Positions 1 to 31,178 of a DNA stretch of 32,384 nt are shown piece after piece. The translations under genes were made by a program, and so were the position numbers. Each line of letters opens with the position of its first letter. Positions within the stretch are counted from its first letter, which is position 1. The stretch lies in IMG/VR virus record IMGVR_UViG_3300027299_000110, positions 1-32,384 of that record, one strand, 5' to 3'. The notes below the pieces were generated by a model that was given only the letters and a program-made list of their open reading frames with translations, searched no databases and was not told the DNA's origin. Origin of the DNA: a virus.

Positions 1-2058
1 CCATTTTGCGTCAGTGAAGGTGACTCGGTCACACTCACAGGGCAGTGGAAAAGCGACCCAAAGTATGGTGACCAGTTCGACGCCAAAAGCGTGACTTACG
101 ATTTGCCCGAAACCCCTGAAGGGTTAGTGCAATACCTAGCAAAACATCCTGCGTTCGTTGGGATCGGGGAATCCACAGCCCGCAAGATTGTCCAGTACGT
201 CAGCAGCGCCGAGCACCTTGATCGCGTGATTCGTCAGGATGTTCAAGAACTCAATCGTGCACTGCGGATCCCTAAGCAGACATTGCATTCATTGCGGGAA
301 GCATGGATCGCCAACAGCGCACAAAATGAGGTCCGTTCCTACTTAGCAAGCTTTGGGCTCTCCCATCTTCAAATGGAAGCCTTGATCGAGGAGTTTGGCT
401 CCTCGGTCGTTGGTGTGCTTCGAGCCAATCCGTATTTGATCATTCAGTACGTCAAAGGCTACGGATTTAAGCGAGTCGACAAGATAGCAAGATCCATGGG
501 GGTTCCAAAAGAACATCCAGGAAGGCTCGAAGCCGCTTTGTGCTACTTGGTATTCGATGAGGTCAACTCCGGTCACACATGGATATCTCGCGACGAGCTG
601 GTACACAAGGCAACTGAGTTGCTGCTCCTGGATTCGCTTGACTGCCAGTCAACCATCGAGGTTGCTCTCGATCGAACCATCGAGCAAGGGAAGCTAATCC
701 TCAACGAGGATGCTGTCGCTCTGGCCTATTACGCGGAATCCGAGTGGTTCATCCACCAGTGTTTTCAGAATTACGGCAACGTGACTCGTCCGCTGGGGAT
801 CAGACCATCGCACGGCGAAGGTCTCAAACGCGCACAGCTAGCTGCCTACGAGGCTGCATTGCATCATTCGATCATTGTGATTTCCGGGGGGGCTGGTACC
901 GGTAAGACCCACACACTGGCTCGCATCGCTAAAACCTTCGAGTCAGCCGAACTAAAGGTCGCACTTTGCTCACCCACCGGGAAGGCCTCCAAGCGTATCG
1001 AGGAGTCGCTGCGATCCCAAGGGCTATCGCTTGAAGCAAAGACAATCCACCGGTTGCTTGAGTACAACGGCCATGAGTTTCAAAGAAAGAGCCTCTCGAT
1101 ACCAAGCAACCCAGGGGCTGGCGATACAGCAAACGACGCTTTCGATGTAGTCATCGTAGATGAAGTCTCGATGGTTGATGTCCCCTTGATGGCTGAATTG
1201 CTTCGACGCATCGACTTAGACTCCACCAGACTTATTCTAGTCGGTGATCATAATCAATTGCCCCCTGTGGGCGCTGGTAATGTCCTTCGAGACTGCATCA
1301 AACATGAGCTTGTTCCGACGTTCATTTTGGATGAGGTCATGCGCCAAGCTGGTGTTCTCAAAACCAACAGCATGGCGATTCTATCACAGCGTGTGATGCC
1401 AACGGCCCTGGGCGATCCGGGCTGGAGCGTAATCGATTCCCTCAGTGACCCGGTGCAGATCCAGGTTTACCTGCGCGATTTGGTGCTCAATCGAATTCCG
1501 GATCGGCTTGGTCTAGACCCTGTCATTGATGTTCAAATCATCACGCCGACGCATATTGGACCTCTCGGTACCAAGGCCATCAATGGAATGATGCAGTACC
1601 TGCTCCACGGTGAAGTCAATCGCAAGTTTGCAGTCGGAGACAAAGTCATCCAGACGGCCAATGATTACTGCATGGGGGTTATGAATGGCACACTCGGAAT
1701 TATCTCTGAAATCGACACTGAAGCAGGGACGAGGTACGTCGTCGATTTCGATGGGCACGGTCGCAAGCTAGTCCAGGATGACCAGATTCTTAACGTCCAG
1801 CTTGCCTACGCACTGACTGCGCATAAGGCCCAGGGGAGCGAGTTTCCATGCGTGGTCGTACTTTGCCACAAATCGCATTTCTTCGCCGATCGGAATTGGC
1901 TCTACACCGCGGTGACTCGCGCGTCGAAGTACTGCATCTTGGTCGGTGATCGTTGGGGACTGTCAAACGCTGTGAAAAAGAACAGTGTTAGTCAGCGCCG
2001 AACTTTCCTTGATCGCTGGGCCAAAGAGACTGCTCAAGCCACGGAGGTGTCACTTTGA
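1..2058 (+). CDS. recD2: RecD2-type SF1B DNA helicase, 5' end cut by window
   Basis: ATP-dependent 5'-3' DNA helicase of the RecD2/TraA type, presumably serving phage replication or recombination. The frame is open from base 1, and the residues before the first possible GTG at 91 (a G-Q-W...P-K-Y-G-x-Q-F pattern) match the N-terminal domain of RecD2, so the GTG is internal and the real start lies upstream. Visible parts are helix-hairpin-helix-like segments, Walker A (GGAGTGKT, about nt 886-909), the Walker B-type DEVSMVD (about 1156-1175), and the C-terminal helicase motifs LTAHKAQGSEF and YTAVTRAS. About 685 residues are visible against about 740 in the family, so roughly 40-60 residues are missing. 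Its TGA stop overlaps the start of the primase gene. Confidence 0.9.
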   Translation, partial: PFCVSEGDSVTLTGQWKSDPKYGDQFDAKSVTYDLPETPEGLVQYLAKHPAFVGIGESTARKIVQYVSSAEHLDRVIRQDVQELNRALRIPKQTLHSLREAWIANSAQNEVRSYLASFGLSHLQMEALIEEFGSSVVGVLRANPYLIIQYVKGYGFKRVDKIARSMGVPKEHPGRLEAALCYLVFDEVNSGHTWISRDELVHKATELLLLDSLDCQSTIEVALDRTIEQGKLILNEDAVALAYYAESEWFIHQCFQNYGNVTRPLGIRPSHGEGLKRAQLAAYEAALHHSIIVISGGAGTGKTHTLARIAKTFESAELKVALCSPTGKASKRIEESLRSQGLSLEAKTIHRLLEYNGHEFQRKSLSIPSNPGAGDTANDAFDVVIVDEVSMVDVPLMAELLRRIDLDSTRLILVGDHNQLPPVGAGNVLRDCIKHELVPTFILDEVMRQAGVLKTNSMAILSQRVMPTALGDPGWSVIDSLSDPVQIQVYLRDLVLNRIPDRLGLDPVIDVQIITPTHIGPLGTKAINGMMQYLLHGEVNRKFAVGDKVIQTANDYCMGVMNGTLGIISEIDTEAGTRYVVDFDGHGRKLVQDDQILNVQLAYALTAHKAQGSEFPCVVVLCHKSHFFADRNWLYTAVTRASKYCILVGDRWGLSNAVKKNSVSQRRTFLDRWAKETAQATEVSL

Positions 2059-4397
2059 GTGAGGCTATTGAACGAAATTGTCCAGCGAGCATCCGTGATT
2101 GCCATCAGTGGGTCGCTTGGAAGTATGTCGAGCGAGACGGCAAGCCGACCAAAGCACCGATTAATCCACACACTGGGTTGCTTGCCTCTTCGACTGACTC
2201 ATCGACCTGGGGGACATTCTCACAGGCGATGCAAGCCTGCGAGCGTAACAAGTCTCTTGCCGGTGTTGGCTTTGTCTTTTCAGCCGATGATCCGTACTGC
2301 GGTGTGGACCTGGATGATTCCATCGACGAAGCCACCAGAGAGCTTAAGCCGTGGGCACAGCAGATCGTCGATCGACTCGACAGTTACACCGAGATCAGTC
2401 CTTCAGGCTTGGGCTTAAAAGTATTCATCAGAGCCAGTAAGCCCGGATCCCGCTGCCGCAAGGCGTATCACGACGGTGAAGTCGAGATCTATGATCGCGA
2501 TCGGTTTTTCACTGTCACAGGGAATCGAATCGTCAGTGTTCCCGACGAGGTGAATATTCGGCAAGAATCCCTCGATGCTGTTTATGCACAGGTGTTTGGC
2601 AACGATGAACCAGGCGGTAACGGGACTCCATCGACTAGTCGAGGCCCCCAGCCAAGCGATAGTGGTTCGGTTTCTCTCAGTGACGATCAGATCATCAATC
2701 TGGCGTCCCGGCGTCGCTCCTCGGGCGCAAAGTTTCAATCGCTGTGGAATGGCGATTGGAACTCGCATTTCAATTCGGCCAGTGAGGCGGACTCATCGGT
2801 GGTCTTTACCCTCGCTTACTACACCAAAGATGCTGCTCAGATCGATCGGATCTTCCGACGTTCACAGTTGATGCGTGAGAAATGGGATCAAAAACACGGC
2901 AACGAAACCTATGGACAGCGGACGATCGCCAATGCGTTAAAGAAGGTCACCAAGCAGTACGATCCGACGAAAAAACGCTCTGTTGCCCCCAAGCCACCAA
3001 GCCAGATCCCCCCAAAAATCGGTTTCCCAAACACGGACATCGATTGGGATTTCAGAAGCGATCAGACTGAAAACGCTATGGCCGTGGAGTTCATCGACGG
3101 CAATCAAACCATATTGCGATATGTGCCATCTTGGAAGAAATGGCTCGCCTGGGACTCAAAGCGTTGGAAGATCGATATCGATCAAAGTCGAACGACTCGA
3201 TTGGCACGCAGATTGGTTCGCAATTACTGGGACAGGATGCGAGTCATCCAAAACGAGGACCAGCAAGAGAAATGGGCGGATTTCTGCCGACGAGCCAATC
3301 GCAAGACCACGATCGAGAACGTCGTATCGCTAGCACGGTGCGATGGTAGGACGACGATCGATCACGAGCTATTGAATCAAAACTCCTATTTCCTGAATCT
3401 GCAAAACGGCACACTTGATTTATCCACATCGGAGTTTCGCGATCATCGTCAGACGGATTCCATTACGCAAATCGCCAACGTCGCATACGATCCCAATGCG
3501 TCATGTCCAAAGTGGCGAGCATTCATCGATCTGATTTTCGGAAGCGACGATGAAGCCAAGCGATACATCCAAGCCCTGCTGGGTTATTCGTGCTCGGGGG
3601 ATGTCGGCGAGCATATTCTTCCAATCTGCTATGGCTCGGGTGCCAACGGCAAGTCAACGCTCTGGAATGCAATCGTCGAATTGCTTGGTGACTATGCCAT
3701 GCTGGCACCTAGCAAGTTGCTGCTTGGCACGACCAACGAGCATGACACGATCATCGCATCGCTCTACCAGCGGCGTTTGGTTGCCATCAGCGAGCCCGAT
3801 GAAGGCTCAAAGCTCCGGGAAGCTCGGGTCAAGGAATTAACAGGCGACGAGCAGATCACAGCAAGACGGATGCGAGAGGATTATTGGAGCTTTCGACGCA
3901 CGCACAAGTTTTGGCTAAGCACGAACCATCTGCCACAAATCAATGGCACTGATGAGGGCATCTGGCGTCGCATCAAGCTTATCCCCTTTAGAGTAGACCT
4001 CCGGACGGTAACAAAACCTATCCCTGACTATCACAAATTGCTCATTAGCGAAGAAGGTCCTGGAATCCTTAATTGGCTACTAGAAGGGTTTAAAGACTGG
4101 CGCAAGAACGGCTTTATTGAGCCTCAATCGGTCATTAGCGAGACAAGATCGTATCGGGGAAGTTCGGATGAGCTAGGTCGCTTCATTGCCGACTGCTGTG
4201 AGGTTTCACCGGAACTTGTGGTCGCCTCTTCGGAGCTTTTTGATGCTTATCGAACCTGGGGAGGCGAGCTGAGCCAGGTCCGATTTTCGAAGCAAATGCA
4301 GACCCGTTTTGCGCACTCAAAACGCAACTTTGGACGGTTCCGAAACAAGCAGGTTTTCGAGGGCATTTCTTTCTCAAAAAGTGATCAAAATGACTGA
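2055..4397 (+). CDS. phage primase-helicase (PrimPol-like domain plus SF3/D5 helicase)
   Basis: Multidomain replication protein of 780 residues. The N-terminal part (about 14-165) has archaeo-eukaryotic primase features like those of NrS-1-type phage polymerases: GVDLDD with candidate metal ligands D85 and D87, SPSGLGLKVF (115-124) and FTVTGNRI. The C-terminal part is a D5/SF3 helicase with Walker A GSGANGKST (527-535, Lys533). It would make primers and unwind DNA at the phage origin. The start is TTG at 2055, overlapping the recD2 stop and preceded by a strong GGAGG at 2043-2047. A candidate origin lies 47 bp downstream of its stop. In the SPSG motif a Lys replaces the His often found there. 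I am confident of the class but not of the exact primase subfamily. Confidence 0.88.
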   Translation: MSEAIERNCPASIRDCHQWVAWKYVERDGKPTKAPINPHTGLLASSTDSSTWGTFSQAMQACERNKSLAGVGFVFSADDPYCGVDLDDSIDEATRELKPWAQQIVDRLDSYTEISPSGLGLKVFIRASKPGSRCRKAYHDGEVEIYDRDRFFTVTGNRIVSVPDEVNIRQESLDAVYAQVFGNDEPGGNGTPSTSRGPQPSDSGSVSLSDDQIINLASRRRSSGAKFQSLWNGDWNSHFNSASEADSSVVFTLAYYTKDAAQIDRIFRRSQLMREKWDQKHGNETYGQRTIANALKKVTKQYDPTKKRSVAPKPPSQIPPKIGFPNTDIDWDFRSDQTENAMAVEFIDGNQTILRYVPSWKKWLAWDSKRWKIDIDQSRTTRLARRLVRNYWDRMRVIQNEDQQEKWADFCRRANRKTTIENVVSLARCDGRTTIDHELLNQNSYFLNLQNGTLDLSTSEFRDHRQTDSITQIANVAYDPNASCPKWRAFIDLIFGSDDEAKRYIQALLGYSCSGDVGEHILPICYGSGANGKSTLWNAIVELLGDYAMLAPSKLLLGTTNEHDTIIASLYQRRLVAISEPDEGSKLREARVKELTGDEQITARRMREDYWSFRRTHKFWLSTNHLPQINGTDEGIWRRIKLIPFRVDLRTVTKPIPDYHKLLISEEGPGILNWLLEGFKDWRKNGFIEPQSVISETRSYRGSSDELGRFIADCCEVSPELVVASSELFDAYRTWGGELSQVRFSKQMQTRFAHSKRNFGRFRNKQVFEGISFSKSDQND

Positions 4398-5169: not shown

Positions 5170-7368
5170 ATGAAAATTGACATTAGACCGATAGCGGAAA
5201 TCAAACCATACCCGAACAACCCCCGCATCAACGATGATGCGGTCGATGCTGTCGCAAGTAGCATCAAGGAGTTCGGGTTCCGACAACCGATCGTTGTGGA
5301 TACCGATGGGGTGATCATTTGCGGACATACCCGATTCAAAGCCGCGCAGAAGCTTGGCCTTGAGAAGGTACCGATCCATGTGGCCACGGATCTTACCCCC
5401 GAGCAGATCAAGGCCTACCGGATCGCCGACAACAAGAGTTCGGAATTGGCCGATTGGAATTTCGATCTCTTGCCGATCGAACTTGGTGAACTTCAAACAG
5501 CAGGATTTGATCTATCGCTCCTGGGTTTTGATTCCGATGAGCTTCTAAAGCTCATGAGCGGGGACGTAAACGAAGGACTCACGGATCCCGATGATGTGCC
5601 GGCACCACCGGATGCTGCGGTAACCCAACCTGGAGATCTTTGGATCTTGGGTGATCATAGGTTGCTCTGCGGGGACTCATCGAAACCCGAGGACCTGGAT
5701 CGACTCTTGGGTGGTAAAACCATCCAATTGGTCAACACGGATCCGCCCTACAACGTGAAGGTGGAACCGCGATCGAACAACGCGATCGCAGCGGGGTTGT
5801 CATCGTTCTCGAACGATAACGCTTCACAAAAGCTCAAAGGGGGCCAAGGGAACGCAGCCTCCTTTGGTGTCGACCACGAGACCGGTAAGCCAAAGCATCC
5901 TGCGACGCACAAAAAACTCCGAGCCAAGGATCGTCCCTTGGCAAACGACTTTGTGAGCGATCAAGAGTTCGATCGATTGCTCGATGCATGGTTTGGAAAC
6001 ATCGCTCGGGTGCTCGACCCAGGTCGTGGTTTCTACATCTGGGGTGGGTATGCCAACTGCGGCAACTACCCACCGTTCCTCAAGAAGCATGGTTTGTATT
6101 TCAGCCAAGCAATCATCTGGGACAAGATGCACCCGGTGCTTACCCGCAAGGACTTCATGGGAGCCCATGAATGGTGCCAACCACCAGATACGATGGTGCA
6201 AACCGCAGGGGGAACAAGTACGCTTGGCCAAATGCGTGACGACGATCGCGTGGTTAGTTATTATTCGCACAGCTCAGCAATCGTGGGCTTGCGAGATGGC
6301 TACCGAGTCAAAGTCGGCAGGCGGCCTTACGGAGGAAAGCTCTATGGGGTAGCAACCCCGTCGAAGCAATCCTGGGGGACCGATGGTCACATCTGGACGG
6401 TACGCATGACCCAAGATTACGCATCGCGATGGTGCGTGTATCTTATGCGTCGTGGCACTTGGTGGCGCGTTGGTATGACCAAGATGCGAACCACCTGGGG
6501 CTTTGGTGTAAAGGGACGATTGCTTCATGAGCTTGGAGATGAGGCTTGGATTCTCTCGCTGCATGATTCGGCAGCGGAGGCTCGGATGCAAGAACAGCTG
6601 GTGTCGATTCAGTTTGGGATTCCGCAGACATGCTGGGTCACGAACCGAAGCTCGTCGCACAGGCAAAGTGATCACATCAGGGACTTTTACGGTCAACTCG
6701 ATGCAGATGCCCAAGAAGCGGCTGCTTGCAACGCACTTGCACACTTCAATCGAAACCGAAAGTATCCGTTTGTCGAATCAAACGATACCAGGGCAAAGTT
6801 TGGAGCGCGGCAGTCGATCCAAGTACGTTCGTGCAATCTGCTCCCTGGCAGCATGGAGGTTCCAACTCCAAAGCGAGGTCAAAATGTGGAGTGGACTCCA
6901 ATTCGTGCCGTTGATGTCCAGGACTACTCTGGTGAGGTTGTCTCGTTGGGGGTCGATACGCACGAGCACTACATTGCCGACGGGCTTGTCACCCATAATT
7001 GCTTTTATGGATGGCTTGAAGGGGCTGCGCACGTGTACCTAGGGCCCAACAACGCCACGGATCTATGGCAGATCAAGAAAGTCAACCCGCAGTCGATGGT
7101 CCATCTGACCGAGAAGCCTGTCGAACTGGCGGTCCGCGCGATGCAGTACTCGTCGCGACCAGGAGAGAACGTGCTGGATCTGTTTGGTGGTAGCGGATCG
7201 ACCTTGATCGCTGCCCAGCAGACCGGTCGGCATGCATACCTCATGGAGCTTGACCCGCTTTACAGCGACGTCATCGTCGATCGGTACCAACGGTTCACTG
7301 GCAAGCCGGCTGTCCTCGAGAGAACCGGAACCTCGCCGATTCCGATGCGTGCGGCAGACGCTAAGTAG
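5170..7368 (+). CDS. ParB-like domain / beta-class DNA methyltransferase with intein
   Basis: Predicted 732-residue precursor that would splice to a 457-residue protein. Residues 1-110 form a ParB/Srx-like domain with the GHTR box at 52-55. The methyltransferase part has DPPY (191-194, catalytic motif IV) before DLFGGSGS (670-677, S-adenosylmethionine motif I), the beta-class order for adenine-N6 or cytosine-N4 methylation. Between Trp335 and Cys611 lies an intein (residues 336-610). Removing it restores a continuous H-E-W-C-F-Y-G-W motif. The enzyme could protect phage DNA or regulate through methylation; no partner endonuclease is visible. The gene ends 2 bp before a convergent minus-strand gene. 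Confidence 0.9.
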   Translation: MKIDIRPIAEIKPYPNNPRINDDAVDAVASSIKEFGFRQPIVVDTDGVIICGHTRFKAAQKLGLEKVPIHVATDLTPEQIKAYRIADNKSSELADWNFDLLPIELGELQTAGFDLSLLGFDSDELLKLMSGDVNEGLTDPDDVPAPPDAAVTQPGDLWILGDHRLLCGDSSKPEDLDRLLGGKTIQLVNTDPPYNVKVEPRSNNAIAAGLSSFSNDNASQKLKGGQGNAASFGVDHETGKPKHPATHKKLRAKDRPLANDFVSDQEFDRLLDAWFGNIARVLDPGRGFYIWGGYANCGNYPPFLKKHGLYFSQAIIWDKMHPVLTRKDFMGAHEWCQPPDTMVQTAGGTSTLGQMRDDDRVVSYYSHSSAIVGLRDGYRVKVGRRPYGGKLYGVATPSKQSWGTDGHIWTVRMTQDYASRWCVYLMRRGTWWRVGMTKMRTTWGFGVKGRLLHELGDEAWILSLHDSAAEARMQEQLVSIQFGIPQTCWVTNRSSSHRQSDHIRDFYGQLDADAQEAAACNALAHFNRNRKYPFVESNDTRAKFGARQSIQVRSCNLLPGSMEVPTPKRGQNVEWTPIRAVDVQDYSGEVVSLGVDTHEHYIADGLVTHNCFYGWLEGAAHVYLGPNNATDLWQIKKVNPQSMVHLTEKPVELAVRAMQYSSRPGENVLDLFGGSGSTLIAAQQTGRHAYLMELDPLYSDVIVDRYQRFTGKPAVLERTGTSPIPMRAADAK
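6175..6999 (+). mobile_element. intein within the DNA methyltransferase
   Basis: A 275-residue intervening protein starts at Cys336 and ends at Asn610, followed by the +1 extein residue Cys611. Splicing signatures visible are block A (C-x-P-P-D-T-M-V), block B T-x-x-H in GTDGHIWT, block F (V-S-L-G-V-D-T-H-E-H-Y-I-A-D-G) and block G LVTHN with the penultimate His, before Cys. These are the features of a self-splicing Hint domain. The middle segment (about residues 415-570) contains VYLM and WRVG followed by conserved-looking Arg and Glu positions, a possible divergent GIY-YIG-like endonuclease; no LAGLIDADG or HNH motif is evident. The insertion disrupts a conserved host motif, as is usual for inteins. 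Confidence 0.9.
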
Positions 7369-10799: not shown

Positions 10800-11657
10800 T
10801 TAGGCCGCTTGGTCGTATTTCTTGGCCATCTCCAGGAGCTTGTTCTTGATCGTCTTCCATTCGCGGTTGGTCTCGCCGGTGATCTCGCCGAAGATCTTGT
10901 TTCGAAGGTCACCCTTGTACCAACCCTTGGTCCATCCGAGCCGGTAGAAAAGGCGGTTGAGTTCTGTCTCGCCCAGGCCGGCCCCGGGTCGATCCCAGCA
11001 ACTCTTGGTTCCGTCTTTCTTGGCGTAGTCCCAATCGGCGCATCGTTTGGTGTTCATCGCCAGCTCTGCCAACCCCAGGACCATCATCAGGTATCCGACC
11101 ACCTTGGTCTTGTTGAGCGTTCCGGCGAAGGCCCGGAATTCGATTCGGTTCTTGCCCGCGGCCAGGTGGGTGAGGTTCAGCAGGTGGTAGCGATCCGCTT
11201 CGCATCGGTTCTTCGCGGCGTCTTTGTCCCCGTATTGTTTGATCCGTTTGGTGTAGACCGTTTGTTCTCGCCGGCGTGTTCCGGTGCTCGCGAAAATCGC
11301 TTTTTCGTGGTTGCCAACCAGGGAAATCAATCTGGCCAAGGCGGCTGCATCCCCATTCCATTCGATCGTTATGTGCAAACCGCAGGTGGCGTTTACGCGT
11401 GCTCCGTGCTCGTTGATCTTGTCGATCGCGTCTTCGATCTGCTTGAGGCCTTCGTATCCCTTGAGCTTGGGGCTTACGAATTCGCATCCCTTGCGGTTAG
11501 GTGTTTCTGGTTTGATGCTCGCGTCGCGTTCTGCTCGCCATCCGGTGGGCAACCAAGGTACTTGGTGTCCGTGGTGGTAGGGTCCGATCGGTGTGGTGTC
11601 GCTATTTGGAAGGGTGGTCTCGAATTCGATTCCGAAGGCGATCTCGTTAGCGTTCAT
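10800..11657 (-). CDS. amidoligase family protein
   Basis: A 285-residue member of the putative amidoligase family (glutamine-synthetase-like fold, predicted ATP-dependent COOH-NH2 ligase). Family signatures are present in order: FGIEFE near the N-terminus (8-13), CEFVSP (58-63), TCGLHI (91-96), RYHLLNL (156-162) and RIEFRAFAGTLN (171-182). The start at 11657 puts FGIEFE at the usual distance from the N-terminus; in-frame ATGs at 11699 and 11726 are possible but lie in the leader repeat. The substrate is unknown; known relatives are proposed to modify peptides, cell-wall components or other proteins. It is the first gene of the minus-strand block and is followed by a strong terminator, so it is probably transcribed alone. 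Confidence 0.87.
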   Translation of the reverse strand: MNANEIAFGIEFETTLPNSDTTPIGPYHHGHQVPWLPTGWRAERDASIKPETPNRKGCEFVSPKLKGYEGLKQIEDAIDKINEHGARVNATCGLHITIEWNGDAAALARLISLVGNHEKAIFASTGTRRREQTVYTKRIKQYGDKDAAKNRCEADRYHLLNLTHLAAGKNRIEFRAFAGTLNKTKVVGYLMMVLGLAELAMNTKRCADWDYAKKDGTKSCWDRPGAGLGETELNRLFYRLGWTKGWYKGDLRNKIFGEITGETNREWKTIKNKLLEMAKKYDQAA

Positions 11658-11932
11658 CTGCGTCTGTCCGTTTGGGTTGGGTTGGTCTCTCGTTTGCATT
11701 CGCCATCGCGTTTGCGTGTGACACATTCAGCCCTGCGGCTGGGGATCAATCCAGCCGATAAAGCATGTTTTCCTCAGTCTTTTTGCATGTTTTTCGGTGC
11801 CCCAACAAACGCCACGGTTTGCAACAACACGCATGCGAAATCGCCTTGGCCAAGGGCTCGCATGCGCCAAGAAAACACGCCGGTGGGCCCCGTGTGGGCC
11901 ACGGTGCCAATCCTCAAAGAAGGGAGCCTGGC
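11658..11932. promoter_or_regulatory. divergent intergenic region with leader copy B
   Basis: Separates the minus-strand amidoligase from the plus-strand late operon, so it should hold promoters for both. Copy B of the leader repeat (11788-11821) matches 8631-8661; then on the minus strand come TTGAT (11745-11749), the hairpin CAGCC/GGCTG, ATGTGT and ACGCAAACG (11709-11717). A second palindromic structure at 11830-11866 has CGCATGCGA and TCGCATGCG arms around CCTTGGCCAAGG (11844-11855). Confidence 0.5.
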
Positions 11933-12139
11933 ATGAGTGACGGAAAAAACCCGATCGATCCGAATCGACTAACCCCCGAGCAGGCTGCCAAACTCCTCTC
12001 GGCAGCGGCCAAGATCCGGATCCCCGAGGAGAACATTGTGCTGGACATCGAAAGCGGTGCTCCAACAAACCAAGATGGATCAATCAACTTGGTCCACTAC
12101 ATCGCATGGATGGTAAAGGAGATGGGCCGTGGTGAGTGA
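11933..12139 (+). CDS. small TerS-like protein (putative)
   Basis: A 68-residue protein directly upstream of the terminase large subunit, where a small terminase subunit is expected. Start at 11933 follows GGGAG; an upstream in-frame ATG at 11765 would read through the leader repeat and is rejected. Residues 9-61 (D-P-x-x-L-T-P-E ... L-V-H-Y-I-A-W-M-V) align with residues 4-58 of the following terminase in the same pattern: D-P, L-x-P, paired leucines, I-x-E and Y-x-A-W-x-V. This suggests a shared DNA-binding module. The length is short for a full TerS. The gene overlaps the terminase start by 8-11 bp. Confidence 0.7.
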   Translation: MSDGKNPIDPNRLTPEQAAKLLSAAAKIRIPEENIVLDIESGAPTNQDGSINLVHYIAWMVKEMGRGE

Positions 12140-14396
12140 TCCAAGAAAACTTCGACCTAGCGAACTTTGCAGAATGCTAAACTCCACACCCCTAGGTGAG
12201 GTCATTAGCGAGAGGCAACTGTATCGACACCGAACTCGCGCTGGCATGCGCATCGGCGATGCAAGGTACGTCGATCTTCTTCGCTACGGAGCATGGCTAG
12301 TCGAGACTCGGCATGCGCCAGAGCCCGAGACCTCCGGGGATCCATACGAGAAGCTCAAGGAACGTGCTCGGGCGCGCAATGTGGCTATCGCAACGGCAGG
12401 TCGTGACATCGGAGAGCTTCCGGAGATTGCAGACCCCGCGCGAAAAGCCAAGGCTGCTGTCAATTTTCGATACTTCTGCGAGAGCTATTTTCCGTTGACG
12501 TTCCATCTGGCTTGGTCGGATGATCACCTGAAGGTCATCAACCGGATCGAGCAAGCGGTTCTGCGAGGGGGGCTTTTCTCGATGGCAATGCCTCGGGGGA
12601 GTGGCAAGACTACGATTTGTGAATGTGCTTGCATTTGGGCGGTTCTTAACGGCCATCGTGAGTTCGTATGCCTCATTGGTAGCGACGAGGGCCATGCCTG
12701 CGATATGCTCGAATCGATCAAGATGGAACTCGATGGAAACGAGCTGCTCCTTGCGGATTACCCCGAGGTAGTGTTTCCAATCCAATCCCTCGATGGAATC
12801 GCCAATCGCTGCAATGGCCAGCTCTACAAAGGGGAGCGAACCCACATCGGATGGACCGCCAAAGAAATAGTGCTCCCTACGATGCCCGGAAGCATCGCAA
12901 GCGGAGCGATCATCAAAGTCGCTGGTATCACCGGTCGAATCCGCGGTATGAAGTACAAACGGTCCGATGGCAGGACCGTTCGGCCAACCCTTGTGGTCAT
13001 CGACGATCCACAAACGGACGAATCAGCCAGATCCCTTTCCCAGTGTGCCACGCGCGAGAGTATCCTTGCTGGGGCTATCTTGGGGCTCTCGGGCCCAGGT
13101 AAAAAAATCTCTGGGATCATGCCCTGCACGGTCATTCGCCCGGGGGATATGGCCGACAACATCCTATCGCGAGACAAGCACCCCGAATGGAATGGGGAAC
13201 GGACACGGATGGTCTATGAGTTCCCAACCGACGAAAAACTTTGGACGAAGTACGCCGAGCTTCGAGCAGAGAGCCTTCGTAGTCGTGGCGACCTATCGTT
13301 AGCCACAGAATTCTACGGTTCGAATCGTGCCGCGATGGATCTTGGATCCAAGGTCGCCTGGCCCGAGCGTTACAACCATGATGAACTCTCGGCGATCCAA
13401 CATGCAATGAACCTCAAGCTTCAAGACGAAGCAGCCTTCTTTGCCGAGTACCAAAACGAACCTCTTCCAGAACAAGAAGCAAATGACAACGAACTGACAG
13501 CAGATCAGATTGCTGCGAAGTTTAACCGGATCGACAGACGGGTGGTTCCGATTTCCACCAACCATCTAACGATGTTCGTCGACGTTCAGGCAACGCTGCT
13601 GTTCTATACCGTGGTCGCCTGGGAGAGCGATTTCACTGGATACCTCATCGACTATGGGAGCTACCCGGATCAAAAACGGCCCTATTTCACACTTCGGGAT
13701 GCAAGGAGCACCCTAGCGACGGCAACCAAAGCCGAGGGGCTCGAAGGGAGTATCTACGCGGGTCTTGAGCGACTAACTGGAGATCTGATTGGTCGGGAAT
13801 GGCGACGTGACGATGGTGCCATGATGCGAATCGAGCGATGCCTAATCGATGCCAACTGGGGTGCTTCGACCGATGTGGTATACCAGTTTTGCAGGCAAAG
13901 TGCACACGCTGGCATCGTAATCCCAAGCCACGGGAGGTTCGTTGGGGCATCGAGTCAGCCGTTTTCCGAGTACAAACGTCGCCCGGGGGATCGAGTTGGC
14001 CACAACTGGAGAATCCCCAATATCCATGGGAAACGAGCCGTTCGGCACGTGGTGTATGACACCAACTACTGGAAAACCTTCATGCATGCTCGCATCGCTG
14101 TTTCGATGGGGAGCCGAGGTTGCTTGTCCTTTTTTGGAACAAGCCCCGAGACCCACCGCCTCTTGGCCGAGCACCTCTGTGCCGAGTACCGCGTGCGCAC
14201 CGAAGGCCGTGGTCGAACAGTGGATGAGTGGAAGCAGCGCCCGGAGCGAGGTGACAACCACTGGTTCGATTGCATTGTGGGTTGCTGCGTTGGAGCTTCG
14301 ATGCAGGGTGTAGCACTCTCGGGAAGCAAATCGGTTGGTATCCCCAAGTCTGGACGCGTCAGTTTCGCTGAAATGCAAAGGAAACGAAACCGATGA
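12129..14396 (+). CDS. phage terminase large subunit
   Basis: ATP-driven DNA packaging motor of 755 residues. Residues 1-60 form an extra N-terminal module similar to the preceding small protein. The ATPase has Walker A MPRGSGKTT (154-162, Lys160) and Walker B LVVIDDP (288-294). The C-terminal RNase-H-like nuclease begins with MFVDVQ (Asp485). Start is GTG at 12129 (or the adjacent GTG at 12132) with AAGGAG about 8 bp upstream. The stop overlaps the following zinc-ribbon gene (ATGA). The clear late position before portal and capsid genes supports the call. Confidence 0.92.
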   Translation: MVSDPRKLRPSELCRMLNSTPLGEVISERQLYRHRTRAGMRIGDARYVDLLRYGAWLVETRHAPEPETSGDPYEKLKERARARNVAIATAGRDIGELPEIADPARKAKAAVNFRYFCESYFPLTFHLAWSDDHLKVINRIEQAVLRGGLFSMAMPRGSGKTTICECACIWAVLNGHREFVCLIGSDEGHACDMLESIKMELDGNELLLADYPEVVFPIQSLDGIANRCNGQLYKGERTHIGWTAKEIVLPTMPGSIASGAIIKVAGITGRIRGMKYKRSDGRTVRPTLVVIDDPQTDESARSLSQCATRESILAGAILGLSGPGKKISGIMPCTVIRPGDMADNILSRDKHPEWNGERTRMVYEFPTDEKLWTKYAELRAESLRSRGDLSLATEFYGSNRAAMDLGSKVAWPERYNHDELSAIQHAMNLKLQDEAAFFAEYQNEPLPEQEANDNELTADQIAAKFNRIDRRVVPISTNHLTMFVDVQATLLFYTVVAWESDFTGYLIDYGSYPDQKRPYFTLRDARSTLATATKAEGLEGSIYAGLERLTGDLIGREWRRDDGAMMRIERCLIDANWGASTDVVYQFCRQSAHAGIVIPSHGRFVGASSQPFSEYKRRPGDRVGHNWRIPNIHGKRAVRHVVYDTNYWKTFMHARIAVSMGSRGCLSFFGTSPETHRLLAEHLCAEYRVRTEGRGRTVDEWKQRPERGDNHWFDCIVGCCVGASMQGVALSGSKSVGIPKSGRVSFAEMQRKRNR

Positions 14397-14889: not shown

Positions 14890-16344
14890 GTGTTGTCCTG
14901 GATTTCCAATTGGTGGTCGCCAAAAAGCACTCCCTCGCAATCGCGAAACATTGCAAGGGTCGTGCGCGCTCGTTATGACGCTGCGGTGACCACCGATGAT
15001 AATCGTCGCCATTGGGCCAATGCCGATGGGCTCTCGCCCAACGCATCCAATAGCGCCGAGGTTCGGCGGATCCTTAGGAACCGTGCTCGGTATGAAACGG
15101 CCAACAACTCGTATGCTCGTGGGATTGTGCTAACCCTCGCGCATGACGTAGTGGGTACCGGCCCCCGGTTACAAATGCTTACTGCCGACTCCGAAGCGAA
15201 CCGTCGCATCGAGCATGCCTTCATGATGTGGGCAAAGGCCGTAAACCTTGCAGAGAAACTCCGCACGATGCGGATGGCACGTGCCACGGATGGCGAGGCA
15301 TTTGCTGTCTTGGTGAACAATCCTCGACTAAGCACGCAAGTTCAACTCGACTTGCGTCTCATCGAGGCCGACCAGGTCACGACGTCCGATCTCGATAGGC
15401 TCTCGACAACCGCTGTTGACGGGATCGTATTTGATATTGCTGGTAATCCTATCGAGTACCACGTACTTCGAAGTCATCCAGGGGATGGATACTACTGGGG
15501 AAGAAGCGACTACGAGCAGATCCCAGCATCGTCTGTGCTCCATTGGTTTCGAGCCGATAGGCCAGGACAAACGCGTGGCATCCCTGACATCATGCCAGCC
15601 CTACCGCTATTTGCTCAATTGCGAAGATTCACTTTAGCGGTTCTTGCTGCAGCAGAGACTGCAGCTGACTTTGCAGGGATCCTCTATACCGATGCACCTG
15701 CGAATGGAGAGGCTGATGCAGCAGAACCATTCGAACCAATCGAGCTTGAGAAGCGTGCATTGGTCACCATGCCAGGTGGATGGAAGATGGCTCAAATGCA
15801 GGCTGAACAACCATCTACAACGTATGCGGAGTTTAAACGTGAGTTGCTCAACGAGATCGCTCGATGCTTAAGTATGCCTTATAATTTTGCTGCCTGCAAT
15901 TCCAGTTCTTATAACTATGCGAGTGGGCGTCTTGATGGACAAATTTATTTCAAAGCGATCCGTGTTGAGCAATCGCATTTAGAGCGAGTTATTCTCGATC
16001 GTATCCTCTCAGCTTGGCTTGATGAAGCCTCGCTCATACCTGATTTGCTTCCAACAGGTTTAGGTCCCATTGCACAATGGCCACATCAATGGTTCTGGGA
16101 TGGTCATGAACATGTTGATCCTGCCAAAGAAGCCAACGCACAAGCCACTCGGCTAGCAAGCCACACCACCACCTTGGCAGACGAGTATGCCAAGCGGGGG
16201 CAAGACTGGGAAGTTCAGCTTCGCCAGCGTGCAAGGGAGATTGCACTTATATCTGAGCTTGGTTTAGCTGCCGAGCAAGTTTCTCAAACTCCAATTCAGG
16301 ATCCACAAGATGTCCAAGACGATGAAGTCCCCATCGACGATTAA
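14890..16344 (+). CDS. phage portal protein, lambda family
   Basis: A 484-residue protein forming the dodecameric DNA entry ring at one capsid vertex. The N-terminal third has the lambda-portal pattern (A-R-Y-x-A-A, then N-x-x-S-A-x-V-R-x-x-L-R-N-R-A-R-Y-E, N-N-x-Y-A-R-G). Start is GTG at 14890, two bases after the preceding stop, with GGGGG upstream. The C-terminus overlaps the protease-capsid gene by 35 bp. From about 15600 to 16300 the DNA is visibly AT-richer and uses codons such as TTT, TTA, AAT and TAT more than the neighbours, possibly a recombinant segment. Confidence 0.9.
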   Translation: MLSWISNWWSPKSTPSQSRNIARVVRARYDAAVTTDDNRRHWANADGLSPNASNSAEVRRILRNRARYETANNSYARGIVLTLAHDVVGTGPRLQMLTADSEANRRIEHAFMMWAKAVNLAEKLRTMRMARATDGEAFAVLVNNPRLSTQVQLDLRLIEADQVTTSDLDRLSTTAVDGIVFDIAGNPIEYHVLRSHPGDGYYWGRSDYEQIPASSVLHWFRADRPGQTRGIPDIMPALPLFAQLRRFTLAVLAAAETAADFAGILYTDAPANGEADAAEPFEPIELEKRALVTMPGGWKMAQMQAEQPSTTYAEFKRELLNEIARCLSMPYNFAACNSSSYNYASGRLDGQIYFKAIRVEQSHLERVILDRILSAWLDEASLIPDLLPTGLGPIAQWPHQWFWDGHEHVDPAKEANAQATRLASHTTTLADEYAKRGQDWEVQLRQRAREIALISELGLAAEQVSQTPIQDPQDVQDDEVPIDD

Positions 16345-18364
16345 GGCCGAAGAGAATCGCAACCAACTGAGGTTAAATGCAACAGCGGTGATCGATGTCG
16401 ATGCATCGGCTGACGGTGCATCAAGCGGTGTGCTCCCCCGTTTTCGGATGGTCGCATATACAGGTGGCCAGATGCGAGTCGCTGGATGGCGGCACCCTGT
16501 GATCATCGACCTGGCTGGTCTATCGATCCCATCGCAAGCGCGGCCGATCCGATTCGGACACGATCCTCTCTCGGGTGTTGGTCATACCGACTCGATCCGA
16601 GTCGAGGCCGGCCAGCTTGTAGCCACCGGTGTGGTCTCTCGGGATACACCTGCTGCTCGTGAGGTAGTCGTCAGTTCAAAGAACGGATTCCCATGGCAAG
16701 CAAGCGTGGGGACCGGTGTGGATGAGTTCGAGTTCGTCAAGGAAGGTCAAAAGGTCACCGTCAACGGCAACCAATACAACGGTCCGGTGAATGTGATTCG
16801 AAGATCCTCGCTTGGTGAAATCAGTTTCGTAGACCTTGGTGCCGACGGAGCCACTAGCGCGAGTGTCGCAGCTCAGGCATCTGCAACCTTTGGAGAATCC
16901 GAGATGGATCAAAGTCAAACTGCAAACCAAGACGACCAAGCCGTAACTCCAGCGACTCCGGTTGCTCCGGATCCAGTACCGGTCTTGGTTCCCCCGAATC
17001 CAGTTCCAGTCGAGCCAGTCACGAATCCTCCTGAGGGGATTAGCGAAGTGGAAGCCATGAGGGCGGCCCATGCTACTGAACTCGAGCGTATTGCTGGCAT
17101 TCGCAGCATTTACAACGGGGCTCTTCCGCTAGTCGAAGCCCAAGCGATCCGCGAAGGATGGAACCTTGAGAAAGCTGAACTCATGAAGATCCGAATGATG
17201 CGCCCCGAAGTTCCTGCGATCCATGTCCCGCAAAACACAATTAGCGCCAGCGTCCTAGAGGCCGCCTGTTATATCAGCGCTAATCTTATGGACGTCGAGC
17301 AGCATATTCCCGAGCAAAGCCTTGAGATTGCTTCCAAGAAGTTCCGAGGGGGGATCGGTCTTCAGGAACTTCTGCTCGAAACCGCTTGGGCCAATGGTTA
17401 TACGGGACGGACTTTTCGAGACAACCGCGAGGTGATGCGAGCAGCGTTCGGCCAGCGTGTGGAAGCGAGCTCGGTAAGCAATATCGACATCGGTGGAATT
17501 CTCTCGAACGTGGCAAACAAGTTCCTTCTTGAGGGTTTCTACACCGTGGAACGCACATGGCGTAACATCTGCTCGGTGCGTAATGTAACGGACTTCAAAA
17601 CCGTGACGAGCTATCGGCTGATCGGTAAAGATCAGTACGAGCTGGTGGCCCCTGGGGGGGAAATCAAGCACGGGAATCTTGGGAACGAGAGCTTTACGAA
17701 CAAGGCAGACACCTACGGGTTGATGCTCGGTGTGGATCGTCGAGATTTCATCAACGATGATCTGGGAGCAATCACCACCGTACCTAGGAAGCTGGGCCGG
17801 GGATCAGGGATGAAGATCAACGATGTGTTCTGGACTACGTTCATGAACAATTCGGCGTTCTTCACCGCAGGCAACAAAAACTTTTTGACCGGGACCGATA
17901 CCGTTTTGTCGATCGATGGGCTCACCAAAGCAGAGGTTGCCTACTACGACTTGGTGGACTCCGATGGAAAACCGATCGGAACGATGCCGGCGATTTTACT
18001 GGTGCCGACGTCATTGTCCGCGATCGGCTCGCAGCTCTACAAATCTTTGGAGATGCGAGACAACACGGCCAACGCCAGAACTCCAATTAGCAACCCTCAC
18101 GCTGGTAAGTTCCGTGTGGAGATCAGCCGTTACCTCGGCAACACGATTTATACAGGGAATTCGACCAAGGCTTGGTACTTGCTGTCGGATCCCAACGATC
18201 TTCCGCTGATCGAAGTTGCTTTCTTGAACGGCCAAGAAGCCCCAACGATCGAAACCGCTACGGCTGATTTCAACGTCCTGGGCGTCCAGATGCGCGGTTA
18301 TCACGACTTCGGTGCGAGTCTTCAAGACCCACGCGCAGCGATCAAGTGCAAGGGTGAGGCATAA
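16310..18364 (+). CDS. fused prohead protease and major capsid protein
   Basis: A single 684-residue chain combining maturation protease, linker/scaffold and capsid protein. Residues 40-190 resemble the HK97-type prohead protease: FGHD with His84, W-Q-A-S-V-G with Ser132 and L-G-E-I-S-F-V-D (168-175). Residues 195-245 form a Pro/Val/Gln-rich linker; 245-300 look helical like a scaffold delta domain. From about 310 to the end the sequence resembles Mu gpT/HK97-fold major capsid proteins, including A-I-L-L-V-P and the C-terminal R-G-Y-H-D-F-G. Self-cleavage is expected to release the capsid subunit. Start at 16310 follows AGGA; ATG at 16322 is an alternative. Confidence 0.88.
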   Translation: MSKTMKSPSTIKAEENRNQLRLNATAVIDVDASADGASSGVLPRFRMVAYTGGQMRVAGWRHPVIIDLAGLSIPSQARPIRFGHDPLSGVGHTDSIRVEAGQLVATGVVSRDTPAAREVVVSSKNGFPWQASVGTGVDEFEFVKEGQKVTVNGNQYNGPVNVIRRSSLGEISFVDLGADGATSASVAAQASATFGESEMDQSQTANQDDQAVTPATPVAPDPVPVLVPPNPVPVEPVTNPPEGISEVEAMRAAHATELERIAGIRSIYNGALPLVEAQAIREGWNLEKAELMKIRMMRPEVPAIHVPQNTISASVLEAACYISANLMDVEQHIPEQSLEIASKKFRGGIGLQELLLETAWANGYTGRTFRDNREVMRAAFGQRVEASSVSNIDIGGILSNVANKFLLEGFYTVERTWRNICSVRNVTDFKTVTSYRLIGKDQYELVAPGGEIKHGNLGNESFTNKADTYGLMLGVDRRDFINDDLGAITTVPRKLGRGSGMKINDVFWTTFMNNSAFFTAGNKNFLTGTDTVLSIDGLTKAEVAYYDLVDSDGKPIGTMPAILLVPTSLSAIGSQLYKSLEMRDNTANARTPISNPHAGKFRVEISRYLGNTIYTGNSTKAWYLLSDPNDLPLIEVAFLNGQEAPTIETATADFNVLGVQMRGYHDFGASLQDPRAAIKCKGEA

Positions 18365-18810: not shown

Positions 18811-20064
18811 ATGAAAACCAAGTGTTTGTCGCTGGTAGCTCTGGTGGCTGTTTGCATCGCCACCGTTGCATTCTCCCAAGAAACGATCTGCATCGATGGC
18901 AAGTGCCAGGCTGGGCAAGTCCAGAGCACGATCTACATTGATCCACTTCGTGAGGAACTCACCCTTGTAGACCAGGAACCGAGGGCAACAGCCGTCGGCA
19001 TCGCTGGCGATCGTTTCGATCAGGTCGTCCGGGCCACGGTTCGCGTTACGGTCAGTGGTGTATGCGGAAGTGGTACGGTTGTCGGTCGCACCCCCGAAGG
19101 GAATGCGATTGTGCTTACCAACGCACACGTGGCAGGTACCGCGCGTGGCCGAACCGTCAACGTAGAACGCTGGAATACCAACGGCAGTAGCGAGAAAGGA
19201 ACCGGGACGATCATCGCCTCCGGTTATGGTCGAGGCACCAGCGTCGACTTCGCCTTGCTCAAGTGCAGTCCTGCATTCGCCAAAGACGTCGATCCGATCC
19301 CTCTAGCCGATCGCTACCCTAGCAACCAATCGTCGGTGACGACCTTCGGATGCCCGCGATGCGAATGGCCAAGCCTTCAGGTTCTTCGGCTCAATCGCAA
19401 GGAAGGTCAAATCCTCTCTTGGAAACCGGAAGCCATCGGAGGACGCAGCGGCTCGAGTCTGATCGACTACACGGATGAAGGTCCGCGTGTCGTCGGGCTA
19501 CTTACCTGGGCTGGTGGTGGCGAGGGGCTTGGCCAATCGACTCCGTTTCTACTCAGCGCGATGCGAGGCAAGCTTCCAACAACGCTCGAGGGTCTACCAT
19601 CCGGCACCCGGGAAGTTAGTTGTCAAACCGAAGAAGCCAGCGGCTCCGAACAGATCGTCCAGGTTCCTTCAACTACGCTCGGCGAACCATTGCAATGGCC
19701 AATGGGTTTGCTCGCCCAAGCACAGGTGCAAGATGATGTGATCGACTCGATCGTCGATCGACCAAAGATACGACCAACCCCTCGGGATCCAGAAGAATGG
19801 GATCCGACGCCGGGTCGTTTTCGACTTATACCGTCCTGGACAGCAGGAGGTTTGGTTGCTACCTCAGCCGCATCAAGCATTGCGATCATCTTGGGGTTGC
19901 AATATGGAATCCCTCTGGTGCTTGGTGCTATTCGAAATGCACGCAAGAATCGTGGGAAAACGCTTCTTGATGACGAGCAGTTTAATCAGCTCATGGATCA
20001 GTATTCTCAACTGATCAAGCTCGTTGAACAAAACGGCAAGACTCCTCCGGACATCAAATCCTAA
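18811..20064 (+). CDS. exported trypsin-like serine protease with C-terminal membrane segment
   Basis: A 417-residue protein with an N-terminal signal peptide (basic start, hydrophobic residues 6-20, likely cleavage near A-F-S/Q at 20-24). A trypsin/HtrA-type domain carries a full catalytic triad: His106 in T-N-A-H-V, Asp146 in S-V-D-F-A-L-L, Ser213 in G-R-S-G-S. A Pro/Asp-rich region (about 265-340) leads to a hydrophobic helix near residues 348-372 followed by basic residues, so the C-terminus would be anchored with a cytoplasmic tail. No PDZ domain. AGGA precedes the ATG. It sits between capsid decoration and head-completion genes, an unusual place for an exported enzyme; it may serve entry, exclusion of other phages or virion maturation. 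Confidence 0.87.
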   Translation: MKTKCLSLVALVAVCIATVAFSQETICIDGKCQAGQVQSTIYIDPLREELTLVDQEPRATAVGIAGDRFDQVVRATVRVTVSGVCGSGTVVGRTPEGNAIVLTNAHVAGTARGRTVNVERWNTNGSSEKGTGTIIASGYGRGTSVDFALLKCSPAFAKDVDPIPLADRYPSNQSSVTTFGCPRCEWPSLQVLRLNRKEGQILSWKPEAIGGRSGSSLIDYTDEGPRVVGLLTWAGGGEGLGQSTPFLLSAMRGKLPTTLEGLPSGTREVSCQTEEASGSEQIVQVPSTTLGEPLQWPMGLLAQAQVQDDVIDSIVDRPKIRPTPRDPEEWDPTPGRFRLIPSWTAGGLVATSAASSIAIILGLQYGIPLVLGAIRNARKNRGKTLLDDEQFNQLMDQYSQLIKLVEQNGKTPPDIKS

Positions 20065-24085: not shown

Positions 24086-26077
24086 ATGGCTTCCAGTTCC
24101 AGCATCAAAGCAGGTGCAGCCTACATCGAGCTCTACACCAAAGACTCGCGTCTGGTGAAGGGACTCAATGATGCTGCCAAGCGACTGGACGCATTCGGCA
24201 AAAGCCTCCAAGGAATCGGGACCAAGATGGCGATGCTCGGCGCGGGGATCGTCACCCCATTGGCCGGTGCAGCCAAGGTGTTTGCCGACATGGGGAGCGA
24301 TATGGTCGACATGAGCCAACGCACCGGCGTGTCGGTCGAAGCCCTCTCGGAACTAGGATTCGCTGCCGAACAGTCCGGTGCCGACCTGGGGACGCTTGAA
24401 GGATCCCTCAAGAAGATGCAGAAAATGCTCTTTGAAGCGGCATCCGGTTCGCAAGCGGCCCAGGAAACCCTCGCATCGCTTGGGCTCAGTGTGGCGCAGC
24501 TTTCCAAACTCTCGCCTGACGAACAGTTTAAAGCGATCGCAGATCGGATGTCTCAAATCACCGATCCGACACTGAAAACCGCCGCCGCGATGGCGATCTT
24601 TGGCAAGTCAGGCACACAGCTTCTACCAATGTTATCGAGCGGTGCGCAAGGAATCGAGGAGCTGCAGCAACAAGCCCGCGATCTGGGGCTGACCATGGCA
24701 ACCGACGATGCCCAAGCCGCAGAAGCCTTTGGGGACCGTATCGATGTGTTGTGGAAAGTTCTCAAAAAGGCCGTCTTTACGATCGGATCAGCCTTGGAGC
24801 CGGTTCTCTCAGCCATGATCGATTCGACCGTTCGAATCGTCGTGGCGACCAGCGATTGGATCAAAAACAACCAAGACTTGATCGTCACCGTCTTCAAAGT
24901 CGGCATGGCGATCGCAGCTGGGGGAGCAGCGATTGTTGCGTTGGGGGCTGCAGCAACCGGACTTGGGACAGTATTTAGCGCAGCCGCTGCAGTCATCGTC
25001 GGCATTGGCCAAGGGATCGCAATACTAGGAACCGCGATCGCAGCACTGCTGTCTCCGATTGGTCTTACCATCGCCGGCCTTGCTGCTCTGGTCGGCTACC
25101 TCGTCTACACCAGCGGTGCGGGTACCCAGGCGATGCAGTGGCTGGGTGAGCGATTCAATGAACTCAAAGACACCGCACTGGCAGCCTGGAAAGGGATCGG
25201 CGATGCACTGGCCGCCGGTGACATCGCGCTAGCAGGCAAGATCCTTTGGCTCACGTTGAAGATGGAATGGCAACGCGGGGTCGCATTCTTGCAATCCAAA
25301 TGGCTGGACTTCAAAGGATTCTTCATCGGTATCTTCCAAAGTGCGGTTTACAGCGTCGCCGGATTGATGACCGACGCGTGGGCAGGTCTGCAAACCGGTT
25401 GGCTTGAAACCACCCACTTCATCGCCGATAGCTGGACGGTTCTGATCAGCCTGCTGCAAAAGGGATGGAACCGATTCAGTGGATTCTTTCAAAAAGTATG
25501 GGCCCGTATCCAAGGTCTCTTTGGGGATACCAACGCCGAAGCTGAGATTGCCAAGATCAATGATGAGATCGCTCGCCAAGACGACCTGATCAACAACTCT
25601 CAAAACCAAACGATCCTCGATCGCGAGAAGCAACGTCAAAAGGCTCGAAACCAAATCGAGCAAGACCGGCAAGGTGCCCAGTCGGCACTCTCGGACATGC
25701 AGGCCCAAGAGCAATCCGCACTGGCCGATGCAAACCAGAAAGCTTTGGCCGACTCTGCTGCCGAGCTCGAGAAGGCCAAAGGGGAGTGGAAAGCCGCCCT
25801 GGGTGAAGCAGCACAAAAGCGAGCAGAAACCTCCCCCGGATCACCGAGCAAATTCTCCTTGTCTGAGCTTGGCCTTCCAGACATGGGTAGCATGGATCAA
25901 ACGCTTGCCGAGACCAAGAAGAAAACGGATGTCGTGGGGACCTTCAACCCCATCGCGGCGATGAACCTCGGATCCGATTCGCTTGGCGAACGCACAGCTC
26001 GGGCTAGCGAAGAGGTGGCAACGAACACCAAGAAACTCGTACAGCAAGCCGAACGTGGTGGCTTGGTCTTTGGATAG
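24086..26077 (+). CDS. tape measure protein
   Basis: A 663-residue tail-length protein. Residues 30-245 are helical with typical A-G-x-x-V-x-P-L-A-G-A-A; about 265-345 hold several hydrophobic helices rich in Gly/Ala, as expected for the membrane-active part; about 490-590 form a long coiled coil rich in Gln, Lys, Ala. A P-G-S-P-S segment follows. The start is 2 bp after the upstream stop. At 663 residues it implies a tail of about 100 nm by the usual relation, an estimate only. Confidence 0.9.
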   Translation: MASSSSIKAGAAYIELYTKDSRLVKGLNDAAKRLDAFGKSLQGIGTKMAMLGAGIVTPLAGAAKVFADMGSDMVDMSQRTGVSVEALSELGFAAEQSGADLGTLEGSLKKMQKMLFEAASGSQAAQETLASLGLSVAQLSKLSPDEQFKAIADRMSQITDPTLKTAAAMAIFGKSGTQLLPMLSSGAQGIEELQQQARDLGLTMATDDAQAAEAFGDRIDVLWKVLKKAVFTIGSALEPVLSAMIDSTVRIVVATSDWIKNNQDLIVTVFKVGMAIAAGGAAIVALGAAATGLGTVFSAAAAVIVGIGQGIAILGTAIAALLSPIGLTIAGLAALVGYLVYTSGAGTQAMQWLGERFNELKDTALAAWKGIGDALAAGDIALAGKILWLTLKMEWQRGVAFLQSKWLDFKGFFIGIFQSAVYSVAGLMTDAWAGLQTGWLETTHFIADSWTVLISLLQKGWNRFSGFFQKVWARIQGLFGDTNAEAEIAKINDEIARQDDLINNSQNQTILDREKQRQKARNQIEQDRQGAQSALSDMQAQEQSALADANQKALADSAAELEKAKGEWKAALGEAAQKRAETSPGSPSKFSLSELGLPDMGSMDQTLAETKKKTDVVGTFNPIAAMNLGSDSLGERTARASEEVATNTKKLVQQAERGGLVFG

Positions 26078-31159: not shown

Positions 31160-31178
31160 TCCACGAAAGGATTCCATA

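Follow-up and report, generated by a model that had tools for sequence, protein, structure and literature searches.

The virus record analyzed here (32,384 bases; hereafter the window, i.e. the whole stretch of DNA under study) has the layout of a tailed phage, and a gene coding for a ParB-domain N6/N4 DNA methyltransferase is interrupted in it by a long in-frame insert. Which element resides in this gene, and what may be the role of the domain located in its middle? Nucleases carried by inteins are usually of the LAGLIDADG, less often of the HNH type. The initial annotation had suggested an intein lacking either signature, the middle part of which could be a divergent GIY-YIG nuclease. Taken together, the data point with high probability to a mobile class 1 intein, in which a divergent GIY-YIG nuclease, most likely a homing endonuclease, is embedded.

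The methyltransferase gene and its insert

The gene spans positions 5170 to 7368 of the window (plus strand, as all its segments described below), and encodes a precursor of 732 aa, from which a spliced product of 457 aa is predicted. Pfam domains PF02195 (ParB_N) and PF01555 (N6_N4_Mtase) are both found in the frame, which also matches phage methyltransferase families of PHROGs (phrog_498, DNA methyltransferase, 2.5e-121). The N-extein (5170-6174, 335 aa) includes the ParB domain and the first half of the methylase, with the DPPY motif; the C-extein (7000-7368, stop codon included) starts at Cys+1 with the residues CFYGW, and includes the second half of the methylase, with the DLFGGSGST motif. 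The exteins of the intein-bearing methyltransferases are intact and strongly conserved. The insert (6175-6999) corresponds to precursor codons 336-610, and is made up by 275 in-frame codons free of stops; frame and insert had been mapped exactly to the base in the initial annotation.

Other genes of the window code for an exonuclease/helicase (91-2058), a primase (2055-4397), the large terminase (12129-14396), the portal (14890-16344), the head maturation protease (16310-18364), the tape measure (24086-26077) and a tail fibre (27551-28630). According to Pfam, the phage also carries accessory genes unusual for a tailed phage, coding for a trypsin-like peptidase, a putative amidoligase, a mannosyltransferase-like protein and an FkbM-type methyltransferase (18811-20064, 10800-11726 on the minus strand, 29165-31159 and 31122-31874). 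Near-identical copies of the intein reside in other virus contigs (L001-L008), and copies 95-100% identical in MAG contigs labelled Planctomycetota or Pirellula (L087-L089). The host of the phage, as judged from these binned contigs, is therefore probably a planctomycete.

All the residues required for splicing, already listed in the initial annotation, can be located exactly. Cys1 is encoded by TGC at 6175-6177, the block B motif T69-x-x-H72 reads TDGH (6379-6390), His274 and Asn275 end the insert (6994-6999), and Cys+1 is encoded by TGC at 7000-7002. C1, H72, H274 and N275 are invariant across 62 aligned intein sequences, and the Pfam Intein_splicing domain was found in 61 of these 62 relatives, and hence the insert is not a product of chance. 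All the 139 inteins extracted feature HN at the C-terminal end, and either C or S at the +1 position. The same codon carries the insert in a large number of contigs and phyla independent of each other, which rules out a chance event or an assembly artefact.

The splicing domain is split in two. The N-terminal half covers intein residues 1-83 (6175-6423), and is also kept in two mini-inteins (L074 and L125); the C-terminal half covers residues 214-275 (6814-6999), ends with His274-Asn275, and is the region hit by PF14890 and TIGR01443 (intein_Cterm). PF14890 (Intein_splicing) aligns to residues 196-275 of the window intein and reaches the end of the profile (155/155), with a score of 20.2 bits vs. 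a cut-off of 35.8. TIGR01443 scores 14.1 on the intein alone and 17.7 on the whole precursor, vs. a cut-off of 15.6, and is therefore passed by the latter. The structure prediction proposed in the initial annotation was carried out with AlphaFold2 on 46 aligned inteins, and yielded a model with a mean pLDDT of 96.2. Intein, BIL and hedgehog Hint structures are the best neighbours of the model in a Foldseek search of the PDB (top probability 1.00). According to splicing residues, model and PDB matches, the 275 aa insert is a class 1 (Cys1) intein, with a modelled Hint splicing fold.

Excision of the 275 codons leaves 457 residues, joined as ...DFMGAHEW|CFYGWLEG.... The restored HEWCFYGW stretch, anticipated in the initial annotation, is found in intein-free viral and MAG homologues. 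The intein-free viral alleles nearest to the window gene (L230, L231, L232, L234 and L235; N-exteins 90-91% identical) are ungapped at the junction, and read ...KD[FY]MGAHEW CFYGWLEG[SA]AHVYLG. Three MAG copies (L214, L215 and L216) are intein-free as well; L216 is continuous across the junction, and L214 shares genome bin G022 with an intein-bearing copy. The initial annotation had indicated that a failure of insert-free homologues to match across the junction would speak against an intein; the comparison was made, and the junction is continuous.

The domain between the Hint halves

Intein residues 84-156 (protein residues 419-491; 6424-6642) form the core of a divergent GIY-YIG nuclease, as supported by invariant columns, structural model, fold search in BFVD, profile comparison and dN/dS. 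Among 46 diverse inteins, the residues invariant between the two Hint halves are Y89 (6439-6441), R98 (6466-6468), G100 (6472-6474), R115 (6517-6519), W125, E140 (6592-6594) and P150. The VYLM and WRVG motifs spotted in the initial annotation correspond to residues 88-91 and 97-100. Y89 is the tyrosine of the GIY element; the tyrosine of the YIG element is replaced in every aligned member by the invariant R98, in the context F/W/Y-R-V/I-G, and the literal GIY-YIG motif is incomplete. In the model, R115 lies in a helix formed by residues 111-118 and E140 in a helix formed by residues 133-147. The asparagine that follows the Glu helix in GIY-YIG proteins was not identified in the domain. Modelled in isolation, the middle domain (pLDDT 94.6) folds as beta-beta-alpha-beta-alpha, followed by two helices. 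These belong to a variable extension (residues 157-213; 6643-6813), the least conserved segment, and were placed by AlphaFold2 at residues 162-173 and 177-190; the extension is a candidate for, and possibly represents, the DNA-binding part of the endonuclease.

The relationship to GIY-YIG proteins was monitored by profile-profile comparison. The reference profile was made up by 28 domains (UvrC, UPF0213 and one other) gathered from bacterial genomes via PF01541. The intein domain matched the UvrC and UPF0213 profile with P=3.9e-6 (hhalign probability 87%), the GIY tyrosine, the YIG glycine and the glutamate of helix 2 being aligned in register. The best P value was 0.018 in 42 control windows taken from unrelated extein alignments; twenty column shuffles, aligned in a different mode that yielded P=1.5e-5 for the real pair, never went below P=0.12. 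The MUG113/T5orf172 group had been considered as the nearest GIY-YIG branch ('RVG' resembling 'KIG'); hhalign gave a P of 0.33, obtained with the only two usable MUG113 sequences.

In the fold search against BFVD, a library of modelled viral proteins, ranks 1-3 are significant, and include a phage adenine methyltransferase and a 3'-5' helicase, which presumably match because they host homologous inteins. They are followed by a GIY-YIG domain protein at rank 4 (E 4.5e-3, probability 0.97), and then by homing and group I intron endonucleases; the GIY-YIG matches are weak, with E values from 4.5e-3 to 0.2, a TM score of about 0.4-0.5 on the query, and probabilities of 0.84-0.99 in the first ten. 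The PDB, searched by Foldseek with the isolated domain, returned neither a GIY-YIG structure nor any significant match, which is a true weakness of the case for GIY-YIG.

No GIY-YIG family of Pfam, NCBIfam or PHROGs matches the domain of the window intein. PF01541, PF10544 and PF13455 find no match in the 62 members either, which reflects a limit of detection rather than a trait defining the family. The profile searches proposed in the initial annotation were positive for Intein_splicing in the relatives and for the GIY-YIG profile built for hhalign, and negative for the Pfam GIY-YIG models. Its suggestion of a divergent GIY-YIG domain is supported by the profile match and by the resemblance to GIY-YIG proteins in the viral fold library; a match to an unrelated fold, which it had named as the contrary outcome, did not emerge. 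Homology of the middle domain to the GIY-YIG superfamily is supported, the claim being one of domain homology and not of a complete motif. As all the aligned sequences have Arg in place of the YIG tyrosine, 'divergent GIY-YIG nuclease' is the most fitting name, and the domain is no textbook member. Neither LAGLIDADG nor HNH families were found by Pfam and NCBIfam in the window intein, as initially annotated, nor are they listed for the 62 relatives.

Mobility, selection and alternative readings

Occupancy of the methylase site is sporadic. The N-extein identified 80 viral relatives, 12 of which are occupied, 65 empty and 3 broken otherwise. The same site is occupied in phage, prophage or chromosomal copies in Planctomycetota, Streptococcus, Providencia and alphaproteobacteria. 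Seven out of 17 supported splits of the intein tree conflict with supported splits of the extein tree (FastTree, local support at least 0.95, 34 sequences), which indicates that inteins move between methylase genes, as expected for elements encoding a homing endonuclease. A co-conversion tract at the insertion site was looked for as well; DNA identity in 30-nt bins revealed no clear gradient around the site in the loci compared.

Splicing domain and nuclease are separable modules. The mini-inteins L074 (149 aa) and L125 (144 aa), inserted at the same methylase site, consist of the Hint halves only, and lack the nuclease. Within full-length inteins, the nuclease core is the part under the strongest purifying selection, dN/dS among close copies (the window, L225 and L233) being 0.00-0.02 in the core vs. 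0.07-0.17 in the Hint halves; the extension that follows the core is the most variable part. The domain profile matched exactly once in each of 29 whole genomes, always in a long ORF of the size of an intein precursor, and a search with the nuclease core as single sequence retrieved only contigs already known to carry such inteins.

The empty viral alleles (n=65) have an uninterrupted junction, with Cys at +1 in 41 and Ala in 24. All the methylase inteins found feature Cys at +1 (54/54), and occupied alleles with Ala+1 were not found, a pattern which a requirement of splicing for Cys+1 would predict. Alleles with Ala in place of Cys could therefore not splice the intein upon its entry, and may possibly be homing-resistant. 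They include L214, L215 and L236-L247. In three alleles (L248 from 1258, L286 from 3449, L288 from 1149) the methylase is broken after ...PVLTRKD, seven codons upstream of the intein site; the interrupting sequences are similar over the first 50 bases or so (RMGxRVERVRFAWERGKV), and divergent beyond. Rfam returned no match for the alleles interrupted shortly before the site; the interruption may mark an integration point or the border of another mobile element.

The Hint domain (residues 1-83 and 214-275) would excise itself post-translationally by the standard pathway, in which the N-S shift at Cys1 would be followed by transfer to Cys+1 and by cyclization of Asn275, joining the methyltransferase halves into the 457 aa enzyme. 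The GIY-YIG nuclease (84-156) and the helical extension (157-213) sit inside the Hint domain at the position usually occupied by the endonuclease. As suggested by signs that are all indirect (sporadic occupancy, tree conflict, purifying selection and mini-inteins), the nuclease is most likely a homing endonuclease, which would cleave methyltransferase genes free of the intein where HEW|CFYGW is encoded, and repair of the cut allele would copy the intein in. From these computational results we infer splicing activity, DNA cleavage and the site of cleavage.

Other readings differ from this one in the fate of either module. The intein might splice and yet host a GIY-YIG-like domain devoid of nuclease activity after loss of the YIG tyrosine, acting as a folding or regulatory insert, a nickase or a DNA-binding module. 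The presence of Arg at this position in every aligned member and the invisibility of the domain to the Pfam GIY-YIG models would fit, but Tyr89, Gly100, Arg115 and Glu140 are kept invariant over very diverse hosts, the core exhibits the lowest dN/dS of the intein, where an inert insert is expected to drift, and the mini-inteins show that the Hint domain can dispense with it; we regard this reading as unlikely. It is quite improbable that the domain has a separate descent, as a small alpha/beta nuclease or DNA-binding fold which came to resemble GIY-YIG proteins by convergence. The profile-profile match, with Tyr, Gly and Glu positions co-linear, and the predominance of GIY-YIG proteins among the first viral fold neighbours with an annotation argue against convergence, whereas the lack of GIY-YIG matches in the PDB and of any curated family match argues for it.

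The remaining reading denies splicing. The insert would be of the Hint type, but no longer splice, or only cleave, leaving a methyltransferase in two pieces or inactive. It would fit that scores of the intein alone fall below the cut-offs of PF14890 and TIGR01443, although the latter is passed by the whole precursor. This reading is nevertheless very improbable, as no family member lacks any of the canonical catalytic residues, Cys+1 is always kept at occupied sites in spite of Ala being common in empty alleles, and the exteins are intact and highly conserved. The mobile intein with a nuclease most likely active in homing is accordingly preferred. The homing cycle can be tested on variants already provided by nature, namely the empty Ala+1 alleles and the mini-inteins.

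Breadth of the family and related systems

The window intein is by no means peculiar to this phage, but belongs to a large family. The motif pattern of the nuclease was found in 126 of the 139 inteins extracted; 13 miss the strict pattern, two mini-inteins included. Family members reside in ParB-methyltransferases and, at several positions around the GDxxQ motif, in UvrD/PcrA-type helicases, such as phage SPO1 gp34.33, that of Vibrio phage RYC, and chromosomal helicases of Acidobacteriota, Proteobacteria, Actinomycetota and others. Single cases were found in the alpha subunit of DNA polymerase III (DnaE; L067), a sugar C-methyltransferase (L073) and an AAA-type ATPase (L116).

The intein of the UvrD-type helicase SPO1 gp34.33 (FJ230960) has the same length as the window intein (275 aa), is 34.5% identical over the full length, starts with Cys1 and ends with His-Asn, and features a similar nuclease core (VYLM...FRVG...R...E); it differs in the host protein and in having Ser at +1. 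The intein is annotated in the GenBank record, which, as displayed, reports no nuclease type. The intein of a Streptococcus suis prophage methyltransferase (e.g. phage YS162, phiD12) is inserted at the same site of a homologous ParB-methyltransferase as the window intein, and is 40% identical to it over all 275 residues, in a host of a different phylum; the record does not name it.

In sequence-order terms, the middle domain resembles the GIY-YIG superfamily (I-TevI, Seg proteins, UvrC, UPF0213) in the succession of elements, in the positions of Tyr, Gly, Arg and Glu and in the profile match, but differs because the YIG tyrosine is Arg, and because it is embedded in a Hint domain. LAGLIDADG inteins are likewise mobile, and host the endonuclease between the Hint halves, but the fold of the nuclease is different, and no LAGLIDADG match was found in the window intein. 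Actinophage methylase inteins (Gosselin et al. 2023, PMC9957025) also reside in a phage DNA methylase, are sporadic and undergo within-gene transfer, but carry a LAGLIDADG endonuclease. The AceL NrdHF intein (PMC7891396) has a putative GIY-YIG homing endonuclease at the endonuclease position of the intein; in contrast to the window intein, it is a split class 3 intein, and the GIY-YIG protein is encoded by a separate gene between the halves of the fractured gene.

According to a phylogenomic survey of the GIY-YIG superfamily published in 2006, its members had been found in group I introns, but not in inteins (PMC1564403). The inteins of phage R2 ribonucleotide reductases are all of the LAGLIDADG type (PMC8772380), and GIY-YIG genes of gut huge phages are stand-alone (PMC12363816). 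The open-access literature searched yielded no report of a contiguous intein with a GIY-YIG domain embedded in it. We lean slightly towards the view that these elements form an unrecognized family of contiguous inteins with an embedded GIY-YIG homing endonuclease (YIG tyrosine changed to Arg), distributed among phages and the chromosomes of many bacterial phyla and hosted by methyltransferases, UvrD/PcrA, DnaE and other proteins.

If this is true, a GIY-YIG class would be added to the LAGLIDADG and HNH inteins, and a widespread family with a compact GIY-YIG-derived nuclease would represent a further case in which a splicing domain and a nuclease were paired independently. The family is widespread but apparently uncharacterized, and such inteins, whose nuclease is missed by Pfam, are therefore probably under-annotated in UvrD/PcrA and methylase genes. 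With its 275 aa, the intein is small enough to be expressed and studied for structure and specificity with ease, and compact tools for splicing and cutting could be derived from it.

Further variation was observed among relatives. The chromosomal UvrD/PcrA inteins L113-L166 (about 360 aa) have some 85 extra residues after the GIY-YIG core, with the consensus HRISMVGxDxExRxxLExxGxxVRxAKxGSxSWRxET, perhaps a DNA-binding part. Inteins of the two types may coexist, as a helicase-like ORF (L058:1813-3909) hosts two, one of the GIY-YIG type and the other LAGLIDADG-like (FIGSMLGDGS). The 809 aa methylase ORF of L291, from the same methyltransferase family, hosts a LAGLIDADG-like intein (LFGLYLAQGH, ILQGWLSGDGC) further downstream, at MVHL|C...SHN|TEKPVEL, while its site for the GIY-YIG intein is empty and features Ala+1; in both L058 and L291 the LAGLIDADG motifs were called by eye. 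Finally, an intact intein-bearing methyltransferase frame (L013:2501-3358), absent from the gene table of the plasmid, is located in the Providencia rettgeri plasmid NZ_CP077319.1 near genes coding for an SGNH hydrolase and an integrase; this plasmid may be a phage.
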